Below, one piece after another: positions 22,300 to 30,283 of a DNA stretch of 32,225 nucleotides. Position numbers and translations under genes: made by a program. This DNA is from Candidatus Saccharimonadota bacterium (lineage in GTDB: Bacteria > Patescibacteriota > Saccharimonadia > Saccharimonadales > Saccharimonadaceae). Location: positions 93,949 through 126,173 of the forward strand of contig JAQBRS010000004.1 in assembly GCA_028286395.1 (NCBI GenBank), written 5' to 3'. The notes beneath the pieces were generated by a model. The model saw nothing but the letters and a program-made list of their open reading frames with translations. It did not search any database and was not told the origin of the DNA. Position 1 is the first letter of the stretch; every line of letters begins with the position of its first letter.

Positions 22300-23001
22300 A
22301 TGAGCGAGCGGGCAGAGCACGGCTTCACGTCTGCTCTCCCCCCACGCGAACTTTGGTTGTACAATCCCGACATTGAAGGCCTTATGGAAACGTCTCTTGA
22401 CGGAAGGGGACTTGTCGACCTTGATCAGCTTGTTACTGATATAAAGGCAACAATTGATAAGAGCTTTGACTGGACGTCACAGTTTAACGATGTCCATCAT
22501 CTACAGTGGTTTGCGCATAAATATCCTCCTCTTGAACTTATTAAACTTCCTGCAAAAGTGGACGATATCCTTCCGGTCGACATGATTGCGTTCCGAGAGC
22601 TTGCGAATCGAAAAGCATATGTACCCAGGGTGTTTCATAACTGGGTTCATCGAGTCACACGTGATCCACCAGTCCCATCCGAAGAGGTCATGAGGTATAG
22701 CATAGACGCCCAAAGGGTTGCGATGTCATTATCACGTACGGCAAGTCTGGCTGTTCGTTTGACGAGAATGAGTAAGATTCCTGAAAAGCGACTTGCGATG
22801 CGCCTTGATCAGGAGTTCGAGAATTACAATATTTATCTTGATAACGCCCGACTGGTACCGAAGGAATATAGTTTGCTCGCAATCGAGTCGTTAGAAATCG
22901 CATCACCTGATGACATTCCTATTGTTAATAGGCGACTCGCGAGATTAGCTTTGGATAAGATACCGCTTCGAAATAAGGCAGTCCTTGGGCAGGCGGCATA
23001 G
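22300..23001 (+). CDS. hypothetical protein, 233 aa
   Basis: Not recognised. A soluble protein rich in charged helices, with a Trp/His-rich middle (VHHLQWFAHKYPPLELIKLP, then FHNWVHRVTRDPP) and a Leu/Arg-rich C-terminal half. No membrane segment, signal peptide or catalytic motif stands out. AAAGGAA lies roughly 15 bases before the ATG, too far for a standard Shine-Dalgarno. The following gene begins three bases after the stop, so the two are co-translated and may form a complex. Both sit between rpsG and fusA, inside what is normally one operon. Confidence 0.75.
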   Translation: MSERAEHGFTSALPPRELWLYNPDIEGLMETSLDGRGLVDLDQLVTDIKATIDKSFDWTSQFNDVHHLQWFAHKYPPLELIKLPAKVDDILPVDMIAFRELANRKAYVPRVFHNWVHRVTRDPPVPSEEVMRYSIDAQRVAMSLSRTASLAVRLTRMSKIPEKRLAMRLDQEFENYNIYLDNARLVPKEYSLLAIESLEIASPDDIPIVNRRLARLALDKIPLRNKAVLGQAA

Positions 23002-23004
23002 CAT

Positions 23005-23673
23005 ATGTCTGAACTTCGGATATTCTCAGTACCAAAAGAAGATGACTATCTGGTGGCGACCTTAGCGCTTGCAAGTGAAGCGGAGCAATCTGGTGGTATG
23101 AAAGAATACCTCAGAGAGTATGAATTTCGAGGTGCCAGTAATCAGTCCGAGGTCATTCAACGACACATTAGACTGGCAGGGGAAATTGGGCTTCGATTAG
23201 AGCCAAAGAATAGCCGTGGTATTGCGACAGACCGCATGTTTATGACGATTACCCATGCATTTAAAAGGGGACTTATAACGGGGACAAAGATCACTGATAT
23301 CGTCCATGAAGGAGTACTCTCGGGTGGCTATATACTACAGCGACTTGATCAAGGGGTACCAAAACACGTGGTTCTTGAGGATCCTGACTCTGACACAGAG
23401 GAATTTGTTGACGGACTAGGCATGATTGAATGGGGCGGTATAGGACTTGAGGTCATGGGTGATGATGCGAAATCGTTTGTCGGTGATATGGCGAGTAATG
23501 TCTACGAGCGACCTGAGCATCAAGCTCTCTATAAAATGGGAGTTGGCGCAGCGATTTTGACTGCGTATGGCCTGATTGTCGATGAAAATGTGACTTCCGC
23601 AAATCAGTATTTTAAACATGCGGACCCTTCGGAAGAATTAAGGGAATTAATCAACTCGACCACTGGTGAATAA
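23005..23673 (+). CDS. hypothetical protein, 222 aa
   Basis: Not recognised. An acidic, soluble protein with an N-terminal helical region, a basic patch near 60-95 and a Gly-rich segment (GLGMIEWGGIGLEVMGDD, about 136-153). The C-terminal third has a hydrophobic helix (MGVGAAILTAYGLIVDE) that is short for a membrane span. The start lies three bases after the upstream stop. It probably acts with its partner gene; the fusA promoter follows 13 bases after its stop. Confidence 0.75.
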   Translation: MSELRIFSVPKEDDYLVATLALASEAEQSGGMKEYLREYEFRGASNQSEVIQRHIRLAGEIGLRLEPKNSRGIATDRMFMTITHAFKRGLITGTKITDIVHEGVLSGGYILQRLDQGVPKHVVLEDPDSDTEEFVDGLGMIEWGGIGLEVMGDDAKSFVGDMASNVYERPEHQALYKMGVGAAILTAYGLIVDENVTSANQYFKHADPSEELRELINSTTGE

Positions 23674-23762: not shown

Positions 23763-25862
23763 ATGGCCCAGAAAACTGTCCCACTTGAGAACTTCCGTAA
23801 TGTCGGTATTATTGCCCATATTGACGCAGGTAAGACAACTACTACTGAAGGTATTTTGTACCGTACTGGTATTAACCACAAAATCGGTGTCGTGAAGGGT
23901 ACTGGCGCCGAGGACGGTACAACGACTGACTGGATGGCTCAAGAAAAAGAACGTGGAATTACCATTACTTCTGCTGCAGTGACTGCACAGTGGAAGGGTC
24001 ACACGATCAATATTATTGACACCCCAGGGCACATCGACTTTACCGTTGAGGTAGAGCGTTCTCTTCGCGTCCTCGACGGCGCCGTTACTATCTTCGACGG
24101 CAAGATGGGCGTTGAAGCTCAGTCTGAAACTGTCTGGCGTCAAGCCAACAAGTATGGCGTGCCTCGTATTTGTTTCATCAACAAGATCAACCAAATCGGT
24201 GGTGACTTTTATAAGTCTCTCGACTCCATTCACCTTCGTCTTTCAAAGCATGCACTTCCTGTACACCTTCCTATTGGCTTTGAAAAAGAAATTAATGGTG
24301 TTGTTGACCTTATCGACATGAAATCATACACATACAAAGACTACACCGACCACGAACTAGTTGTTGGTGAAATTCCTGCTGATATGCTGGAAAAAGCAAA
24401 GAACGCTCGTAGCCTTCTTGTTGAAGCAGCCGTTGAAGCTGAAGATGAACTATTCGAACGTTTCCTAAACGAAGGTGAAGAATCAATCACTATCGAAGAA
24501 CTAAAGCGTGCACTTCGTAAGCGAGTGCTTGCTGGTGACTTCTTCCTCGTTACTGGTGGTGACGGTCGTGGTGTGATTGTTGAAAAGGTTCTTGACCTTA
24601 TTAACGACTATCTCCCATCTCCTCTTGATAAGGGTGCAACACAAGCAACAAATCCTAAGACTGGTGACATTGTTGAACGTCAGCCATCTGATGAAGCCCC
24701 ACTTTCTGCACTTGCTTTCAAGATCGCGACTGACCCATTTGTTGGTCGCCTCATCTTTGTTCGTGTTTACAGTGGTAAGTTGACAGCGGGTAGCTACGTG
24801 CTTAACACCACTACTGGTGACAAAGAGCGTATCGGACGTGTTGTTCGTATGCATGCCGACAAACGTGAAGATATCGATATGATCGGTGCTGGTGACATTG
24901 CTGCAGTTGTTGGTCTTAAGGGTACATTTACCGGTCATACACTTGCTGACCCTGCAAACCCTGTGCTTCTCGAATCAATCGAATTCCCAGAACCACCTGT
25001 TTCGATTGCCGTTGAGCCAAAGACAAAGGCTGACCAAGAAAAAATGGGTATTGCTCTCCAGCGTCTCGCTGAAGAAGACCCAACGTTCCGTATTCACACT
25101 GACGACGAAACTGGCCAGACAATTATGTCAGGAATGGGTGAGCTTCACCTTGAAATCCTTGTAGACCGCATGAAACGTGAATTTAACGTTGAAGCAAATG
25201 TTGGTGAACCACAAGTTGCCTTCCGTGAGACTATTCGTGGTACCGCTGAAGCACAAGGTAAACACGCCAAGCAATCCGGTGGACGTGGTCAATATGGTGA
25301 CGTTTGGGTTCGTTTCGAGCCGACAGAAAGTGGTGTTGGATTTGAATTCGTTGATGCCATCAAGGGTGGTGTCGTTCCTAAGGAATATATCAAGCCTGTT
25401 GAAAAGGGTATCCGGGATACACTTGAAAGCGGTGTTCTTGCTGGATACCCAATGATTGGCGTGAAGGCTACTCTTTATGATGGTAGCTACCACGACGTGG
25501 ACTCAAGTGAACTCGCCTTCAACCTTGCCGGTGTCCTTTCTGTAAAAGAAGGTATCCCTAAGGCACGACCAGTAATCCTTGAACCTGTCATGAAAGTTGA
25601 AGTCTCAACTCCTGAAGACTTCATGGGCGATATCATCGGTGACCTTAACGGCCGTCGTGGCCGTATCGATGCAATGGAAGACATCCCTGGCGGTGCGAAG
25701 TTGATCCGTGCGTTCGTACCTCTCTCGAACCTTTTCGGTTACACGAACGATATTCGTTCAATGAGCCAAGGTCGCGCCGCATCAACAATGGAGGTCGCTC
25801 AATATGAGGAAGTACCACCAAACGTTCAGGCAGAGATCATCGCCAAGCGAGCAAGCAAGTAA
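23763..25862 (+). CDS. fusA: elongation factor G with altered guanine-recognition motifs
   Basis: Translational GTPase that drives translocation and, with RRF, ribosome recycling. The 699 residues cover domains I-V. G1 (AHIDAGKTT), G2 (RGITITSAA) and G3 (DTPGHIDF) are canonical. G4, normally NKMD, reads NKIN at 140-143. The G5 area, normally GSAFKNKG, reads VTGGDGRG at about 263-270. Domain II (FVGRLIFVRVYSG), domain III (SGMGELHLEI), domain IV (GGRGQYGDVWVRFEP; the tip GYPMIGVKATLYDGSYHDVDSS) and domain V are normal. No second copy is visible in the window. It sits alone between its promoter and terminator, split from rpsG by two unknown genes. Confidence 0.97.
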   Translation: MAQKTVPLENFRNVGIIAHIDAGKTTTTEGILYRTGINHKIGVVKGTGAEDGTTTDWMAQEKERGITITSAAVTAQWKGHTINIIDTPGHIDFTVEVERSLRVLDGAVTIFDGKMGVEAQSETVWRQANKYGVPRICFINKINQIGGDFYKSLDSIHLRLSKHALPVHLPIGFEKEINGVVDLIDMKSYTYKDYTDHELVVGEIPADMLEKAKNARSLLVEAAVEAEDELFERFLNEGEESITIEELKRALRKRVLAGDFFLVTGGDGRGVIVEKVLDLINDYLPSPLDKGATQATNPKTGDIVERQPSDEAPLSALAFKIATDPFVGRLIFVRVYSGKLTAGSYVLNTTTGDKERIGRVVRMHADKREDIDMIGAGDIAAVVGLKGTFTGHTLADPANPVLLESIEFPEPPVSIAVEPKTKADQEKMGIALQRLAEEDPTFRIHTDDETGQTIMSGMGELHLEILVDRMKREFNVEANVGEPQVAFRETIRGTAEAQGKHAKQSGGRGQYGDVWVRFEPTESGVGFEFVDAIKGGVVPKEYIKPVEKGIRDTLESGVLAGYPMIGVKATLYDGSYHDVDSSELAFNLAGVLSVKEGIPKARPVILEPVMKVEVSTPEDFMGDIIGDLNGRRGRIDAMEDIPGGAKLIRAFVPLSNLFGYTNDIRSMSQGRAASTMEVAQYEEVPPNVQAEIIAKRASK

Positions 25863-25869
25863 CAATATG

Positions 25870-25901
25870 AATAACCGTGCACCAAGCGCGGTTATTTTTT
25901 T
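25870..25901 (+). terminator. intrinsic terminator of fusA
   Basis: Eleven-base-pair stem AATAACCGTGC with GCGCGGTTATT (one T.G pair), five-base loop, T run. Confidence 0.93.
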
Positions 25902-25912
25902 ATACGTATGAA

Positions 25913-25918
25913 TATAGT
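25913..25918 (+). promoter_or_regulatory. -10 box, leaderless promoter of the gene at 25926
   Basis: TATAGT ends seven bases before the ATG at 25926. This decides the start: the ATG at 25908 would lie upstream of the predicted first transcribed base. Confidence 0.5.
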
Positions 25919-25925
25919 AGAATCA

Positions 25926-26516
25926 ATGATTGCGAAACAAGTTGAACGGTACGCAGATGTATCGTACTTCCCATCTGTGCGATTACCAGCCATGGATAGC
26001 TATGTTGTTGACGCTGCGTTTGAACATGCACTAATTGATCGACGTGTCGACGAGCTTCACGATAGGATTGATGCTGATCGGTCACGAAATATGGCTATTG
26101 AGGTATGCGGTGACTATTTGGAGGAAGAGGGCGTGCGAGGTATCGCACTCGGTGTCTTCGCCAGTGCAAGCTTAAGTACTGGCGAGCATGTACTGATACT
26201 GCCTTGGGTAATGTCGAGAGAGTTAGCCAGGAAACCGATGGAGCTTCAGCATGCGCCAGTTGCCTCGGAGGTGCTTTCAGAGTTAGCTAATCTCAATATG
26301 GTGACGTCGGGGCGTCCCGAGGGCGCTGGATATGTACTGGATATCCCCGATAAAAAAACGCTTTTCGTCCTTGATTCAGCAAGGGACAAACGACTGCTTT
26401 TTTCACCACTTGTAAGAAGGGGGCTACAAGCTGCGCTTCGGATCTTGCCGAACCTTGAAGTCGCCTATGGGGGCGAAATTATTACTGCACCAGGTAGACC
26501 TTCACGACGCCCATAG
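25926..26516 (+). CDS. hypothetical protein, 196 aa
   Basis: Not recognised. A soluble, mixed alpha/beta protein. A strand-rich middle (GVRGIALGVFASASLSTGEHVLILPWVMS) is followed by a helix and a segment GAGYVLDIPDKKTLFVLDSARDK. The C-terminus is basic (PGRPSRRP). The ATG at 25926 is preferred over the in-frame ATG at 25908 because of the -10 box seven bases before it. radC begins 40 bases after its stop with its own -10 box. The gene is part of a lineage-specific block between fusA and tuf. Confidence 0.68.
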   Translation: MIAKQVERYADVSYFPSVRLPAMDSYVVDAAFEHALIDRRVDELHDRIDADRSRNMAIEVCGDYLEEEGVRGIALGVFASASLSTGEHVLILPWVMSRELARKPMELQHAPVASEVLSELANLNMVTSGRPEGAGYVLDIPDKKTLFVLDSARDKRLLFSPLVRRGLQAALRILPNLEVAYGGEIITAPGRPSRRP

Positions 26517-26544: not shown

Positions 26545-26550
26545 TAGACT
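26545..26550 (+). promoter_or_regulatory. -10 box, leaderless promoter of the radC-HEPN pair
   Basis: TAGACT ends six bases before the radC-like ATG with no Shine-Dalgarno. The -35 is not recognisable. Confidence 0.45.
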
Positions 26551-26556
26551 AAGAGT

Positions 26557-27207
26557 ATGGAACAAGGGATTAGCTACGACAGGCCACGCGAAAAACTGCA
26601 AAAGAAGGGGTCGGCGGCGCTGACAAATGCTGAATTACTACAAATCCTCATAGGTAGTGGCACGGCGCAAGCCAGCGTGACAAAGATTGCTCGAAAAGTC
26701 GTGAAACGCCTCGCAAAACACGGGAATTCGATTTCCTATGATGTTCTACTTGAGGTGGTGGGACTAGGCCCCGCCAGGGCTTCGCAGATTATTGCAGCAT
26801 TTGAGCTGTCGAGTCGGTACCCCCTCACCAATAAACAGCTCACCATAGATACGGAAGAGAAGGCGAGGGGATTGTTCATCGAATTAACCTTATCGACGTC
26901 ACCGAAGCTGGTCTACCTGACGCTGGACGGCGCAAAGAGACTCATTGCAAAACGGTCAGTTCGAATCAGTGATTCAACGCATCCATCGGCATTGTTGCGT
27001 GGCATATTCTCAAACGTCGTAACTGATCAGGCAGCGGGAATTATGATTGCAATCGGTTGCGCTGATCATACCCTTGATCCATCCATGTTTGAGCTTAGCC
27101 TTGCGAGGGATCTCAACGGAATGGCGCAACTATTTATTGTGACGATCCACGGACTATCTTTGATGAACAAAACGGCTGATAGGTCATTACGGAGTGAATC
27201 ATGGTAA
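26557..27207 (+). CDS. RadC-like protein with degenerate JAMM domain
   Basis: RadC/UPF0758-related, 216 residues. The N-terminal helix-hairpin-helix region is well kept: DRPREKLQKKGSAALTNAELLQILIGSG (8-35) and GLGPARASQIIAAFELSSRY (69-88). The C-terminal domain aligns with the RadC MPN/JAMM fold (KLVYLTLDGAKRLIA at 117-131; AGIMIAIGCADHTLDPS at 160-176), but the metal-binding HNHPSG is replaced by residues IGCADH and the downstream Asp is not conserved. It should therefore lack metalloprotease chemistry and may act as a DNA- or protein-binding module. RadC function is unsettled in general. It overlaps the HEPN gene by seven bases, so the two are translationally coupled. Confidence 0.82.
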   Translation: MEQGISYDRPREKLQKKGSAALTNAELLQILIGSGTAQASVTKIARKVVKRLAKHGNSISYDVLLEVVGLGPARASQIIAAFELSSRYPLTNKQLTIDTEEKARGLFIELTLSTSPKLVYLTLDGAKRLIAKRSVRISDSTHPSALLRGIFSNVVTDQAAGIMIAIGCADHTLDPSMFELSLARDLNGMAQLFIVTIHGLSLMNKTADRSLRSESW

Positions 27208-27791
27208 ACGAGGACAGAGTGCTAACGCGCCAGTTGATGCGCACATGGTTTGATCGTGCGCAGGTTGATTATAGTGACCTGTTCGCAAGGCTATATATCA
27301 CTTATAATGTCTGGTTTCGTAAAGTGACAGGGTGCTCAGAAGATCACGAAGCAATCAAACGGATGACCGAGCGGTTTGTCATTTGGGATGACTATGTACA
27401 TGGTCATACTCTTTGTGAGCTTGTTCCTGTCGTCGAGGAAGTAGCTCATCTCAGTGACTTAGTCAAAGATACCTATGATTGGAAGGGGCTGATCGCTTTT
27501 TGGTATCAGACACGTTGTGATCTGTTTCATGGGCTCACAATGCCCGGTAAGAAACAACATGATGCCAGAATACGGCTTGCGTACGAATCACTCAACATCT
27601 TCATGTGTGAAATTATGCGACGAATGAGATTTTGCTTCACCGATGCAGACTATGCACGATTAACGGAGGTCAGGGCGCTACTGGGGTCTGAGGATGGTCC
27701 AACGCAAACACTGAAAACAATTGAGACCCGATTACACCAAAAATTCATCCATTCAGCCGACTTGTGGAATGTGGATATGGAAAGGGTCTGA
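27201..27791 (+). CDS. Apea-like HEPN domain protein
   Basis: A 196-residue all-helical protein with the hallmarks of Apea-like HEPN domains. The first helix reads LFARLYITYNVWFRKVTG (27-44), a middle helical stretch has FVIWDDYVHG (59-68), and the R-x4-H motif is in YQTRCDLFHG (102-111, Arg105 and His110), followed by a helix from about 121. HEPN domains with R-x4-6-H are commonly metal-independent RNases, frequent in toxin-antitoxin, abortive infection and RNA-processing systems; catalytic activity here is an inference. GGAG sits about eight bases before the ATG, which lies inside the end of the radC-like gene. The tuf promoter begins 27 bases after the stop. Confidence 0.72.
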   Translation: MVNEDRVLTRQLMRTWFDRAQVDYSDLFARLYITYNVWFRKVTGCSEDHEAIKRMTERFVIWDDYVHGHTLCELVPVVEEVAHLSDLVKDTYDWKGLIAFWYQTRCDLFHGLTMPGKKQHDARIRLAYESLNIFMCEIMRRMRFCFTDADYARLTEVRALLGSEDGPTQTLKTIETRLHQKFIHSADLWNVDMERV

Positions 27792-27818: not shown

Positions 27819-27847
27819 TTTACGTATGCTTAAAAAACCTGTATAAT
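27819..27847 (+). promoter_or_regulatory. promoter of tuf
   Basis: TTTACG at 27819-27824, 17-base spacer, consensus TATAAT at 27842-27847. Start near 27854; leader of about 60 bases with an AGAGGAGAA Shine-Dalgarno roughly 12 bases before the ATG, a long spacing. Confidence 0.85.
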
Positions 27848-27914: not shown

Positions 27915-29096
27915 ATGGCAGATTTCGATCGAACCAAGCCACACGTTAACGTTGGAACCATGGGTCACGTTGACCACGGGAAAACAACACTAACAGCTGC
28001 TATTACTACTGTACTTGCAAAGCGTCTTCCAAGCGACGTTAACAAGAAGGTTGACTACGCACAAATAGACAACGCCCCTGAAGAGCGTGCACGTGGTATT
28101 ACTATCGCGACATCTCACCAGGAATACGAATCAAAAGATCGTCACTACGCTCACGTCGACATGCCTGGACACGCTGACTATGTTAAGAACATGATCACCG
28201 GTGCTGCGCAAATCGATGGTGCAATCCTCGTGGTTGCTGCTAACGATGGTCCACTTCCTCAGACTCGTGAGCACGTTCTACTTGCTCACCAAGTTGGTGT
28301 GCCAAAGATCCTTGTTTTCCTAAACAAGATGGACCTCGCTGATCCCGAGCTCGTTGAACTCGTTGAAATGGACATCCGTGAACTACTCGCTAAAAACGGG
28401 TATGACGAAGACGCTCCTATTATCAAGGGCTCAGCAACAAAGGCTCTCGAAGGCGACGAAGCTTCAGAAGACGCGATTATGGAACTTGTTGCAGCTCTTG
28501 ATAGCTACTTCCCAGAACCTGTTCGTGACCTCGACAAGCCTTTCCTTATGCCAATTGAAGACGTTTTCTCTATTAAGGGACGTGGAACAGTTGCAACAGG
28601 ACGAATCGAAACTGGTGTTATCAACATTAACGACCCAGTTGAAATCGTTGGTGTGAAAGCTACTCAAAACTCAGTTGTTACCGGTATTGAAGCATTCAAG
28701 AAGAACCTCGACCGTGGACAAGCTGGTGACAACGCCGGACTCCTCCTTCGTGGTATTGAGCGCGAACAAATTGAACGTGGTCAAGTTATCGTAAAGCCAG
28801 GTTCAATTACTCCACACACTGAATTCGAAGCTGAAGTCTACATCCTCAAGAAAGAGGAAGGTGGTCGTCACACTCCATTCAGCAAGGGTTACAAACCTCA
28901 GTTTTACTTCCGTACGACTGACGTTACTGGTGAAGTTGAACTTCCAGCTGACAAGGAACTTGTTATCCCTGGTGACACACTTACCTTTAAGGTTAAGCTT
29001 CTTGCGCCTATCGCTATGGAGCAAGGTCTTAACTTCGCAATCCGCGAAGGTGGTAAGACTGTTGGTGCCGGTGTGGTAACCAAGATTGTTAAATAG
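27915..29096 (+). CDS. tuf: elongation factor Tu
   Basis: GTPase that delivers aminoacyl-tRNA to the ribosomal A site. The 393 residues match the family length. G1 is [10 protein letters not shown]2 [11 protein letters not shown]3 DMPGHADY (Met replacing the usual Cys of DCPGH), G4 NKMD and G5 [10 protein letters not shown], all compatible with ordinary GTP binding, in contrast to the EF-G of this window. Domains II ([13 protein letters not shown]) and III ([13 protein letters not shown], ending [14 protein letters not shown]) are normal. It forms a single-gene unit with its own promoter and terminator, displaced from fusA by three lineage-specific genes. Confidence 0.98.
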
Positions 29097-29157: not shown

Positions 29158-29595
29158 TTATTTGGGGGTTTTGAGGCTAAGCCAGACACCGCTTGTGCCT
29201 TCGAGCGCTCGCACGCCTCGAATATGTATCTCTGGTTGAAAGGAGGTCGCAGCGACTGCGTCCCAGTACTCACGAGCTTCTGGGGTTAATATTCTTGGAG
29301 AAGTATTAATGGTATCAACGTCTTGTTGATTTAGCGCAGTAATAACTGAGCGGTCAAATTCATGCAGAGCGAGTCGTGCAGTGTGAATAACCATTCGTTC
29401 TTTCAGCTCGGGTTTATGGGCTTTTAAAAGGTTGTGACGGTGGAAACTTTCGACGTACGAGGAAATAGTATCTGTAGAAGCAATAACAAAATCGTGCAAC
29501 TCTGAGGCGCTGATCGTTTCTGCTTCAATAATTTCTCCGTCCACTCGAAGAAGTGATGTTGGTTTAAAGCTAATTTCTCCGTGAGGGACCGGCAT
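29158..29595 (-). CDS. hypothetical protein, 145 aa
   Basis: Not recognised. A soluble protein with a strand-rich N-terminus (GEISFKPTSLLRVDGEIIEAETI), a long central helix pair containing several His residues (SYVESFHRHNLLKAHKPELKERMVIHTARLALHEFD) and a strand-rich end. No catalytic motif is clear. On the minus strand a TATCCT box preceded by TGC ends six bases before the ATG, so it appears leaderless. It converges with tuf. Confidence 0.68.
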   Translation of the reverse strand: MPVPHGEISFKPTSLLRVDGEIIEAETISASELHDFVIASTDTISSYVESFHRHNLLKAHKPELKERMVIHTARLALHEFDRSVITALNQQDVDTINTSPRILTPEAREYWDAVAATSFQPEIHIRGVRALEGTSGVWLSLKTPK

Positions 29596-29672: not shown

Positions 29673-30095
29673 TCAACGGGAGGCGACGGGGGATTTGATG
29701 GCGATTTCGAAACGATAGCCACCGTTTTGTCCGTAGGCTTCGTACTTGGTGAGTACAAGGCCACTATCCTCGAGGAGTTGTGAGCTGAAGTAGTCGACGA
29801 CTTGCTCCTGCTGGGACGCAGCGAGAGTGTCGAACCACATACCTGGAATCATGAATTGACCCAAGGGGTTGTTCTCCACGACCTCCGGGAGATCAAAGAT
29901 GAGATAGTCTAGGACCGTCTCGATCTCAGATCGGCTGAGCTTGTCGAGCACATCTTCCAATCGGAAGGTTGGGATGGGTATTACCGGCTCGATGTAGTTA
30001 GCTATTTCGTGTCTTACTGTTTCAAGCTGACCTTGAGCTTGTGACACTCTTGCGTAAGCGCTCATGTTCGAGCTCATAAATCTCATTTCTCTCAT
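29673..30095 (-). CDS. hypothetical protein, 140 aa
   Basis: Not recognised. After a Met- and Ser-rich start (MREMRFMSSNMSAYARVSQ) the protein has helix-rich sequence with RLEDVLDKLSRSEIETVLDYLIFDLPEVV and FDTLAASQQEQVVDYFSSQLLE, then a strand-rich end GGYRFEIAIKSP. There is no membrane segment. The reading frame is open further upstream, but a consensus promoter ends at 30117, so the first ATG inside the transcript is at 30095, about 15 bases from the predicted start; in-frame ATGs at 30086, 30077 and 30065 are alternatives. It is divergent from rpsJ. Confidence 0.65.
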   Translation of the reverse strand: MREMRFMSSNMSAYARVSQAQGQLETVRHEIANYIEPVIPIPTFRLEDVLDKLSRSEIETVLDYLIFDLPEVVENNPLGQFMIPGMWFDTLAASQQEQVVDYFSSQLLEDSGLVLTKYEAYGQNGGYRFEIAIKSPVASR

Positions 30096-30116
30096 GTACG
30101 AATAGGACAGCGTATA

Positions 30117-30145
30117 ACTATAGCGTTTTAGAGCGTATATGTCAA
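30117..30145 (-). promoter_or_regulatory. promoter of the gene at 29673-30095
   Basis: On the minus strand consensus TTGACA, 17 bases, TATAGT. It is one of the best promoters in the window and is divergent from the rpsJ promoter, with 11 bases between the two -35 boxes. Confidence 0.85.
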
Positions 30146-30156
30146 TCCGTACAGCA

Positions 30157-30185
30157 TTTACATCTGTTAGGAAAACTGTTACAGT
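30157..30185 (+). promoter_or_regulatory. promoter of rpsJ
   Basis: TTTACA at 30157-30162, 17-base spacer, TACAGT at 30180-30185 preceded by TGT. Leader about 92 bases. A second -10-like TACAAT at 30251-30256 lacks a -35. Confidence 0.7.
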
Positions 30186-30283
30186 ACTAAGGTATATTAA
30201 TCCGTATTGAGAACTCGGCCAGACGTAATAAAAGCGATTCGAGCAGAGGTTACAATACACCAACAAAGAAAGGTTTCTTCCTC

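Follow-up and report, generated by a model that had tools for sequence, protein, structure and literature searches.

The locus described here raises the question of why, in the genome of a Saccharibacterium, a gene for a RadC-like protein runs into a gene for a small helical protein between fusA and tuf, and what the two products might do together. The window (the whole 32,225-nt stretch of DNA analyzed) is the end of a contig from an 851 kb genome, whose relatives are named Candidatus Saccharibacteria (UBA6040, TM7i, Microsaccharimonas sossegonensis, and others). One related record, L087 (SEAL01000019.1), is titled 'Chloroflexi bacterium PMG_070', yet the genome collection puts it in the same family as the window Saccharibacterium, and the title looks wrong. 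The gene order is fusA (23763–25862), a 202-amino acid ORF (25908–26516) without any Pfam match, the RadC-like ORF (26557–27207, plus strand, 216 amino acids), an ORF for a HEPN-like, all-helical protein (27201–27791, plus strand, 196 amino acids), and tuf (27915–29096). The two middle frames share seven bases (27201–27207, plus strand), exactly as an original prediction for this locus had described. We propose, with a probability of about 0.5, that the RadC-derived domain may restrain a HEPN-type RNase within a toxin-antitoxin-like or defence module encoded by one small operon.

That the two genes belong together is nearly certain. The HEPN-like family was detected in 13 of the 17 genomes searched of the genus and, outside it, in one clear case, G054, from another genus of the same family; 380 searched genomes of the phylum yielded no further clear case. 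The family was likewise absent from the viral contigs and the phage and plasmid collections searched, and a mobile-element origin is accordingly not supported. In all 14 copies the pair is adjacent and overlapping, with a start codon available that gives 1–11 nt of overlap with the RadC frame, so that separated homologs, which would have spoken against a coupled pair, were not encountered. Within the genus, the pair lies between fusA and tuf wherever the contig allows a view, while in G054 it lies at a different site, among ordinary genes; the two genes therefore travel together, as expected of a toxin-antitoxin-like module. Because the HEPN and RadC trees share their groupings (G002 with G009, G012 with G006, and the window with G015 and G054, with G001 and G010 near) while the fusA tree puts G054 outside the genus, beside G023 and G003, the history of the pair fits vertical descent within the genus and a transfer involving G054, several branches being weak. 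Both genes are under purifying selection, with approximate dN/dS values between G000 and G015 of 0.031 for RadC and 0.054 for HEPN, compared to 0.020 for fusA (dS about 1). Recurrence in 14 genomes and this selection show that the overlap is not due to chance.

The arrangement of the pair also points to joint expression. A terminator-like stem-loop (25869–25897, plus strand; a consensus match of a kind for which 1.8 are expected by chance per region) follows fusA, and tuf has a promoter-like site of its own (27819–27847); the two genes are therefore likely to be transcribed as a unit of their own, separate from fusA. A possible −10 box, TAGACT (26545–26550, plus strand), lies 6 nt before the RadC start and reads TACAAT in G001, and four relatives have in common the pattern TAnAnTAA(A/G)nnTATGG immediately 5' of the RadC start, which suggests that the mRNA is possibly leaderless. 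Within the RadC frame, a GGAG (27191–27194, plus strand), read directly from the sequence, is the likely ribosome-binding site of the HEPN gene, seven bases upstream of its start. The RadC-like protein would be made first, and translation of the HEPN gene would be coupled to it. An order of inhibitor then toxin, with overlapping frames in 14/14 copies, is one reason for the toxin-antitoxin reading, and as in type II modules the adjacent genes are kept together, here at two sites, and are predicted to be co-transcribed.

A further reason comes from the way in which the pair decays. In G007, the HEPN gene is deleted, its first bases being fused to its last in a clean scar (GTGGTAAACGCTGAAAAGGGTCTGA), and the RadC gene is retained (84% identity; dN/dS of 0.04 versus G015). 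A frameshift breaks the HEPN frame of G013 before the motif, and that of G014 is interrupted, again before the motif, by a TGA where the closest relative encodes Trp; the loss cases come from MAGs, and the G013 and G014 lesions could be assembly errors. HEPN copies in G006 (a run of N) and in G005 and G016 (contig ends) were left out of the count of broken genes. All three species with HEPN losses keep an open RadC frame, in its short form in G014, and a HEPN gene without its RadC partner was never seen among the genomes searched. This 3:0 asymmetry suggests a pairing of toxin and inhibitor, although the number is small and two of the cases rest on metagenome assemblies.

The same losses bear on a quite different explanation. 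Since the pair lies between fusA and tuf, it had originally been proposed as a housekeeping factor in translation-linked RNA decay, a role with which its stable position in the genus and the purifying selection on it agree. However, the gap between fusA and tuf in other genera holds unrelated genes or none of this family, the G054 pair is elsewhere, the HEPN gene has been lost in three congeners and is dispensable in G007, and the terminator-like element and the separate tuf promoter-like site set the pair apart from its neighbors. Both genes also diverge fast relative to fusA and tuf, to the point that HEPN proteins are 40–44% identical where tuf is 98% identical. Given the restricted distribution, the repeated HEPN loss, and this divergence beside tuf, we rejected a housekeeping role as very improbable.

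The gap itself looks like a site of gene gain and loss, since different genomes hold different genes there. The 202-amino acid ORF of the window is missing at the same place in the closest relative, G015, and other contents include pilin-like genes (G010, G003) and a gene for a 472-amino acid protein (G012). Between tuf and rpsJ, two fast-evolving ORFs without significant Pfam match (29158–29595 and 29673–30266, minus strand) keep their position in the closest relatives at identities of 27–32% for the first and 45–92% for the second. Upstream of fusA, the ORFs at 22300–23001 and 23005–23673 have homologs in relatives that are ~24–33% identical, except for a 77% identical counterpart of the latter in G015, and the adjoining ribosomal proteins are 86–100% identical.

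The first protein keeps the helix-hairpin-helix region of RadC, as originally claimed, in an N-terminal UPF0758_N domain (26575–26781, plus strand; residues 7–75; Pfam E 3.7e-17). The remainder matches the RadC JAB model of Pfam weakly (residues 114–199, E 5e-5), and at 87 bits the protein does not reach the NCBIfam RadC cut-offs of 133.85 and 180. In an AlphaFold2 model (mean pLDDT 84), residues 94–216 superpose on 2qlc, a crystal structure of RadC (Z 16.4, rmsd 2.0 across 117 residues), and the modeled fold of the C-terminal half is that of RadC. The JAMM site has nonetheless gone, again in agreement with the earlier claim: in an alignment by eye with lone RadCs, the HNHPSG position reads IGCADH (residues 166–171; 27052–27069, plus strand), consistent with an inactive JAB domain in a protein predicted to be an inhibitor or regulator.

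This loss is a property of the whole lineage. The 16 RadCs of the pair clade form one group in the tree (support 100/100), apart from 16 lone RadCs, and none of them has HNHP, whereas all 40 lone RadCs inspected elsewhere (23, then 17 more) do, showing that the metal site was lost before the clade diversified; we count this clean division in favor of the toxin-antitoxin reading. Among paired RadCs, every invariant column other than the start Met falls within residues 10–87 (P10, R11, E12, K13, L22, E26, Q29, G33, G35, L64, G69, G71, E83, and R87). Moreover, in G004 and G014 the RadC frame ends after the N-terminal domain, at 88 and 96 residues, and the HEPN frame comes directly next, so that two species (loci L090 and L092) have this domain as their sole remnant of RadC. 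The C-terminal domain has thus diverged or been deleted in the clade, and only the N-terminal domain is conserved. From this pattern, the N-terminal domain appears to be the part that matters for pairing with HEPN, and its survival alone next to a HEPN frame again favors the toxin-antitoxin reading.

The second protein is more difficult to assign. HEPN domains comprise two helical hairpins with an insert between them and carry the RNase motif R-x4-6-H at the end of helix 3 or the start of the loop to helix 4 (PMC3710099). In a moderate-confidence AlphaFold2 model of the HEPN-like protein (mean pLDDT 79.5, pTM 0.73), helices are predicted at residues 3–20, 24–43, 94–110, and 117–144, with an insert at 48–84, and the motif R105-C-D-L-F-H110 (27513–27530, plus strand) closes the third long helix and precedes the loop that leads to helix 117–144, in agreement with that layout. 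Y24, W38, D93, W94, W101, Y102, R105, C106, and H110 are invariant across ten homologs even though identity drops to 22%, and the R, C, and H of the motif are invariant wherever readable among the 14 pair copies. The predicted R-x4-H motif was therefore present and conserved, and the persistence of R105, C106, H110, and D93-W94 while most of the protein diverges to 21% identity is a further argument for the toxin-antitoxin reading. The HEPN label itself rests on the motif and the predicted helix layout: neither the protein nor any aligned member matched Pfam, NCBIfam, or PADLOC, a PDB sequence search with the protein gave no match to HEPN, and a PDB fold search with its model gave unrelated helical bundles only, none above Z 4.4. 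A HEPN assignment is consequently likely but not proven. Its further description as Apea-like did not hold, as there is no PF18739 match in the genome and a profile comparison with the true ApeA HEPN of another genome gave a probability of 0.7%.

If the second protein were instead a helical partner that binds RNA or DNA, has its R-x4-H by coincidence, and lacks RNase activity, the pair serving in DNA processing such as natural transformation, this would explain why no database recognizes a HEPN domain. Such a reading would also suit two departures from the family, namely the invariant Cys106 in place of the polar residue, mostly N, D, or H, that typically, if not obligatorily, follows the R (PMC3710099), and the lack of a conserved acidic residue in helix 2 of the aligned proteins. 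On the other hand, few columns are invariant in this family, whose members are otherwise 21–44% identical, and these include R, C, H, and the DW before them; in the predicted model they occupy the position of the HEPN active site. A profile comparison (hhalign) also linked the family weakly (64% probability, 102 columns) to a small R-NNLF-HG protein of G665, itself without annotation or Pfam match and with no close relatives found, whose discovery E of 0.0013 per genome is not significant after 380 genomes. We regard a non-RNase partner as quite unlikely, and an RNase as the probable identity of the R-x4-H protein. Elsewhere, in G202 (L132:3703–4194), a 164-amino acid protein with an RCNYIHG motif gave a weak match to the HEPN profile (E 3e-4); it adjoins a predicted membrane protein, not RadC, and is a possible distant HEPN with another partner.

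Where might such a RadC have come from? Among sister lone RadCs, three lie directly upstream of HsdM (L064, L065, and L066) and a fourth (L055) does so with one gene between, and other lone RadCs directly precede an HsdR-like protein (L063), a SNF2-type helicase (L067), or an AAA_15 ATPase (L078). These RadCs (L055, L063–L067, and L078) keep HNHP and are spread over several Saccharibacteria genera. In this family, RadC genes thus stand repeatedly ahead of a defence effector, an order that is possibly general and that upholds the suggested link between RadC and defence contexts. The RNase-paired RadC probably derives from the RadC of a restriction or defence operon, and the location of sister RadCs is also among our reasons for the toxin-antitoxin reading.

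The same neighbors are compatible with an anti-phage or anti-plasmid, abortive-infection unit in which the RadC-like protein, instead of acting as an antitoxin, would sense abnormal DNA by binding it with its helix-hairpin-helix and would in response activate the HEPN RNase. Abortive infection and restriction-linked systems often employ HEPN RNases as effectors (PMC3710099), and the fast divergence of both genes and the loss of the effector in some species would be in keeping with such a function. Yet the pair occupies a chromosomal site that is fixed throughout a genus, not a mobile island, has no PADLOC match, and in G007 keeps its RadC after the loss of HEPN, which fits an inhibitor or a second role better than a sensor. 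We consider this unit rather unlikely; a defence switch, in which a DNA-sensing partner releases the RNase, is nevertheless the main rival to the toxin-antitoxin account, and sequence alone cannot separate the two.

Under the toxin-antitoxin reading, the R-x4-H protein would cut RNA independently of metal, like other HEPN RNases, and would be harmful when free. The RadC-like protein would bind it through the helix-hairpin-helix domain and hold it inactive, the pair working like a type II toxin-antitoxin module in which RadC catalytic activity has no part. The module, now fixed at one chromosomal site, might release its RNase upon infection or stress. That the partner acts as an inhibitor we rate as an even call. 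Several features sit uneasily with the toxin-antitoxin reading, including the Cys after R and the missing library and PDB matches of the HEPN-like protein, and vertical inheritance at a fixed site with no defence island and no trace of the locus in the plasmid and viral collections searched, unlike most toxin-antitoxin and defence systems. In addition, the proteins are 196–216 amino acids each, and the RadC exceeds most antitoxins in size. Of the original suggestion of a toxin-antitoxin or anti-phage module, the coupled two-gene structure, the dead RadC, and the intact R-x4-H have stood, while PADLOC offered no matching system.

Few bacterial proteins that lack an agreed function are as common as RadC. 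In this lineage, evolution has stripped it of its enzyme site and, twice, of the whole JAB domain, while the N-terminal domain has stayed tied to an RNase-like partner. The pairing isolates what that domain may do, namely control an effector encoded alongside. If true, the long-unexplained N-terminal domain of RadC would gain a concrete job in controlling a neighboring effector, and intact RadCs upstream of restriction operons might do likewise, such that the role may be general. TM7i (CP075337.1, locus L089), whose genome is complete, carries the pair, so that tests of the idea may be feasible both in a Saccharibacterium and in E. coli. We tentatively suggest that the pair may represent a novel class of HEPN toxin modules, with a RadC devoid of catalytic activity serving, via its helix-hairpin-helix domain, as the inhibitor or DNA-responsive switch of an RNase.

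Among known systems, the type VII toxin-antitoxin HEPN-MNT (HepT-MntA; PMC7641770, PMC11586414) resembles this one in being a two-gene module, with an R-x4-H protein of HEPN type and a partner encoded by an overlapping or adjacent gene. Its partner, however, is a minimal nucleotidyltransferase, whereas here the partner is RadC-derived with a helix-hairpin-helix, matches UPF0758_N and RadC only, and leaves the locus without an enzyme capable of AMPylating the HEPN protein. RadC (UPF0758) proteins such as 2qlc share both the N-terminal domain and the C-terminal JAB fold, but the paired form is without JAMM metal ligands, is below the NCBIfam cut-offs, has a diverged or deleted C-terminal domain, and has an obligate HEPN-like partner. 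Closest by sequence (41–44%) are the RadCs of other Saccharibacteria upstream of type I restriction operons, likewise immediately 5' of an effector; unlike the paired form, these retain HNHPSG and have as effector not an RNase but a restriction enzyme, helicase, or ATPase. The HEPN families of the 2013 survey (PMC3710099) have the R-x4-H at the end of the third helix and two helical hairpins with an insert, but none listed there is paired with RadC or JAB, neither of which the survey mentions, and the Cys after R sets the present family apart. A full-text literature search for HEPN with RadC found no such pair described, in a scope that leaves out most subscription journals and in which absence is not proof. 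HEPN two-gene modules as such are already known, and what would be new here is the RadC-derived partner within one.
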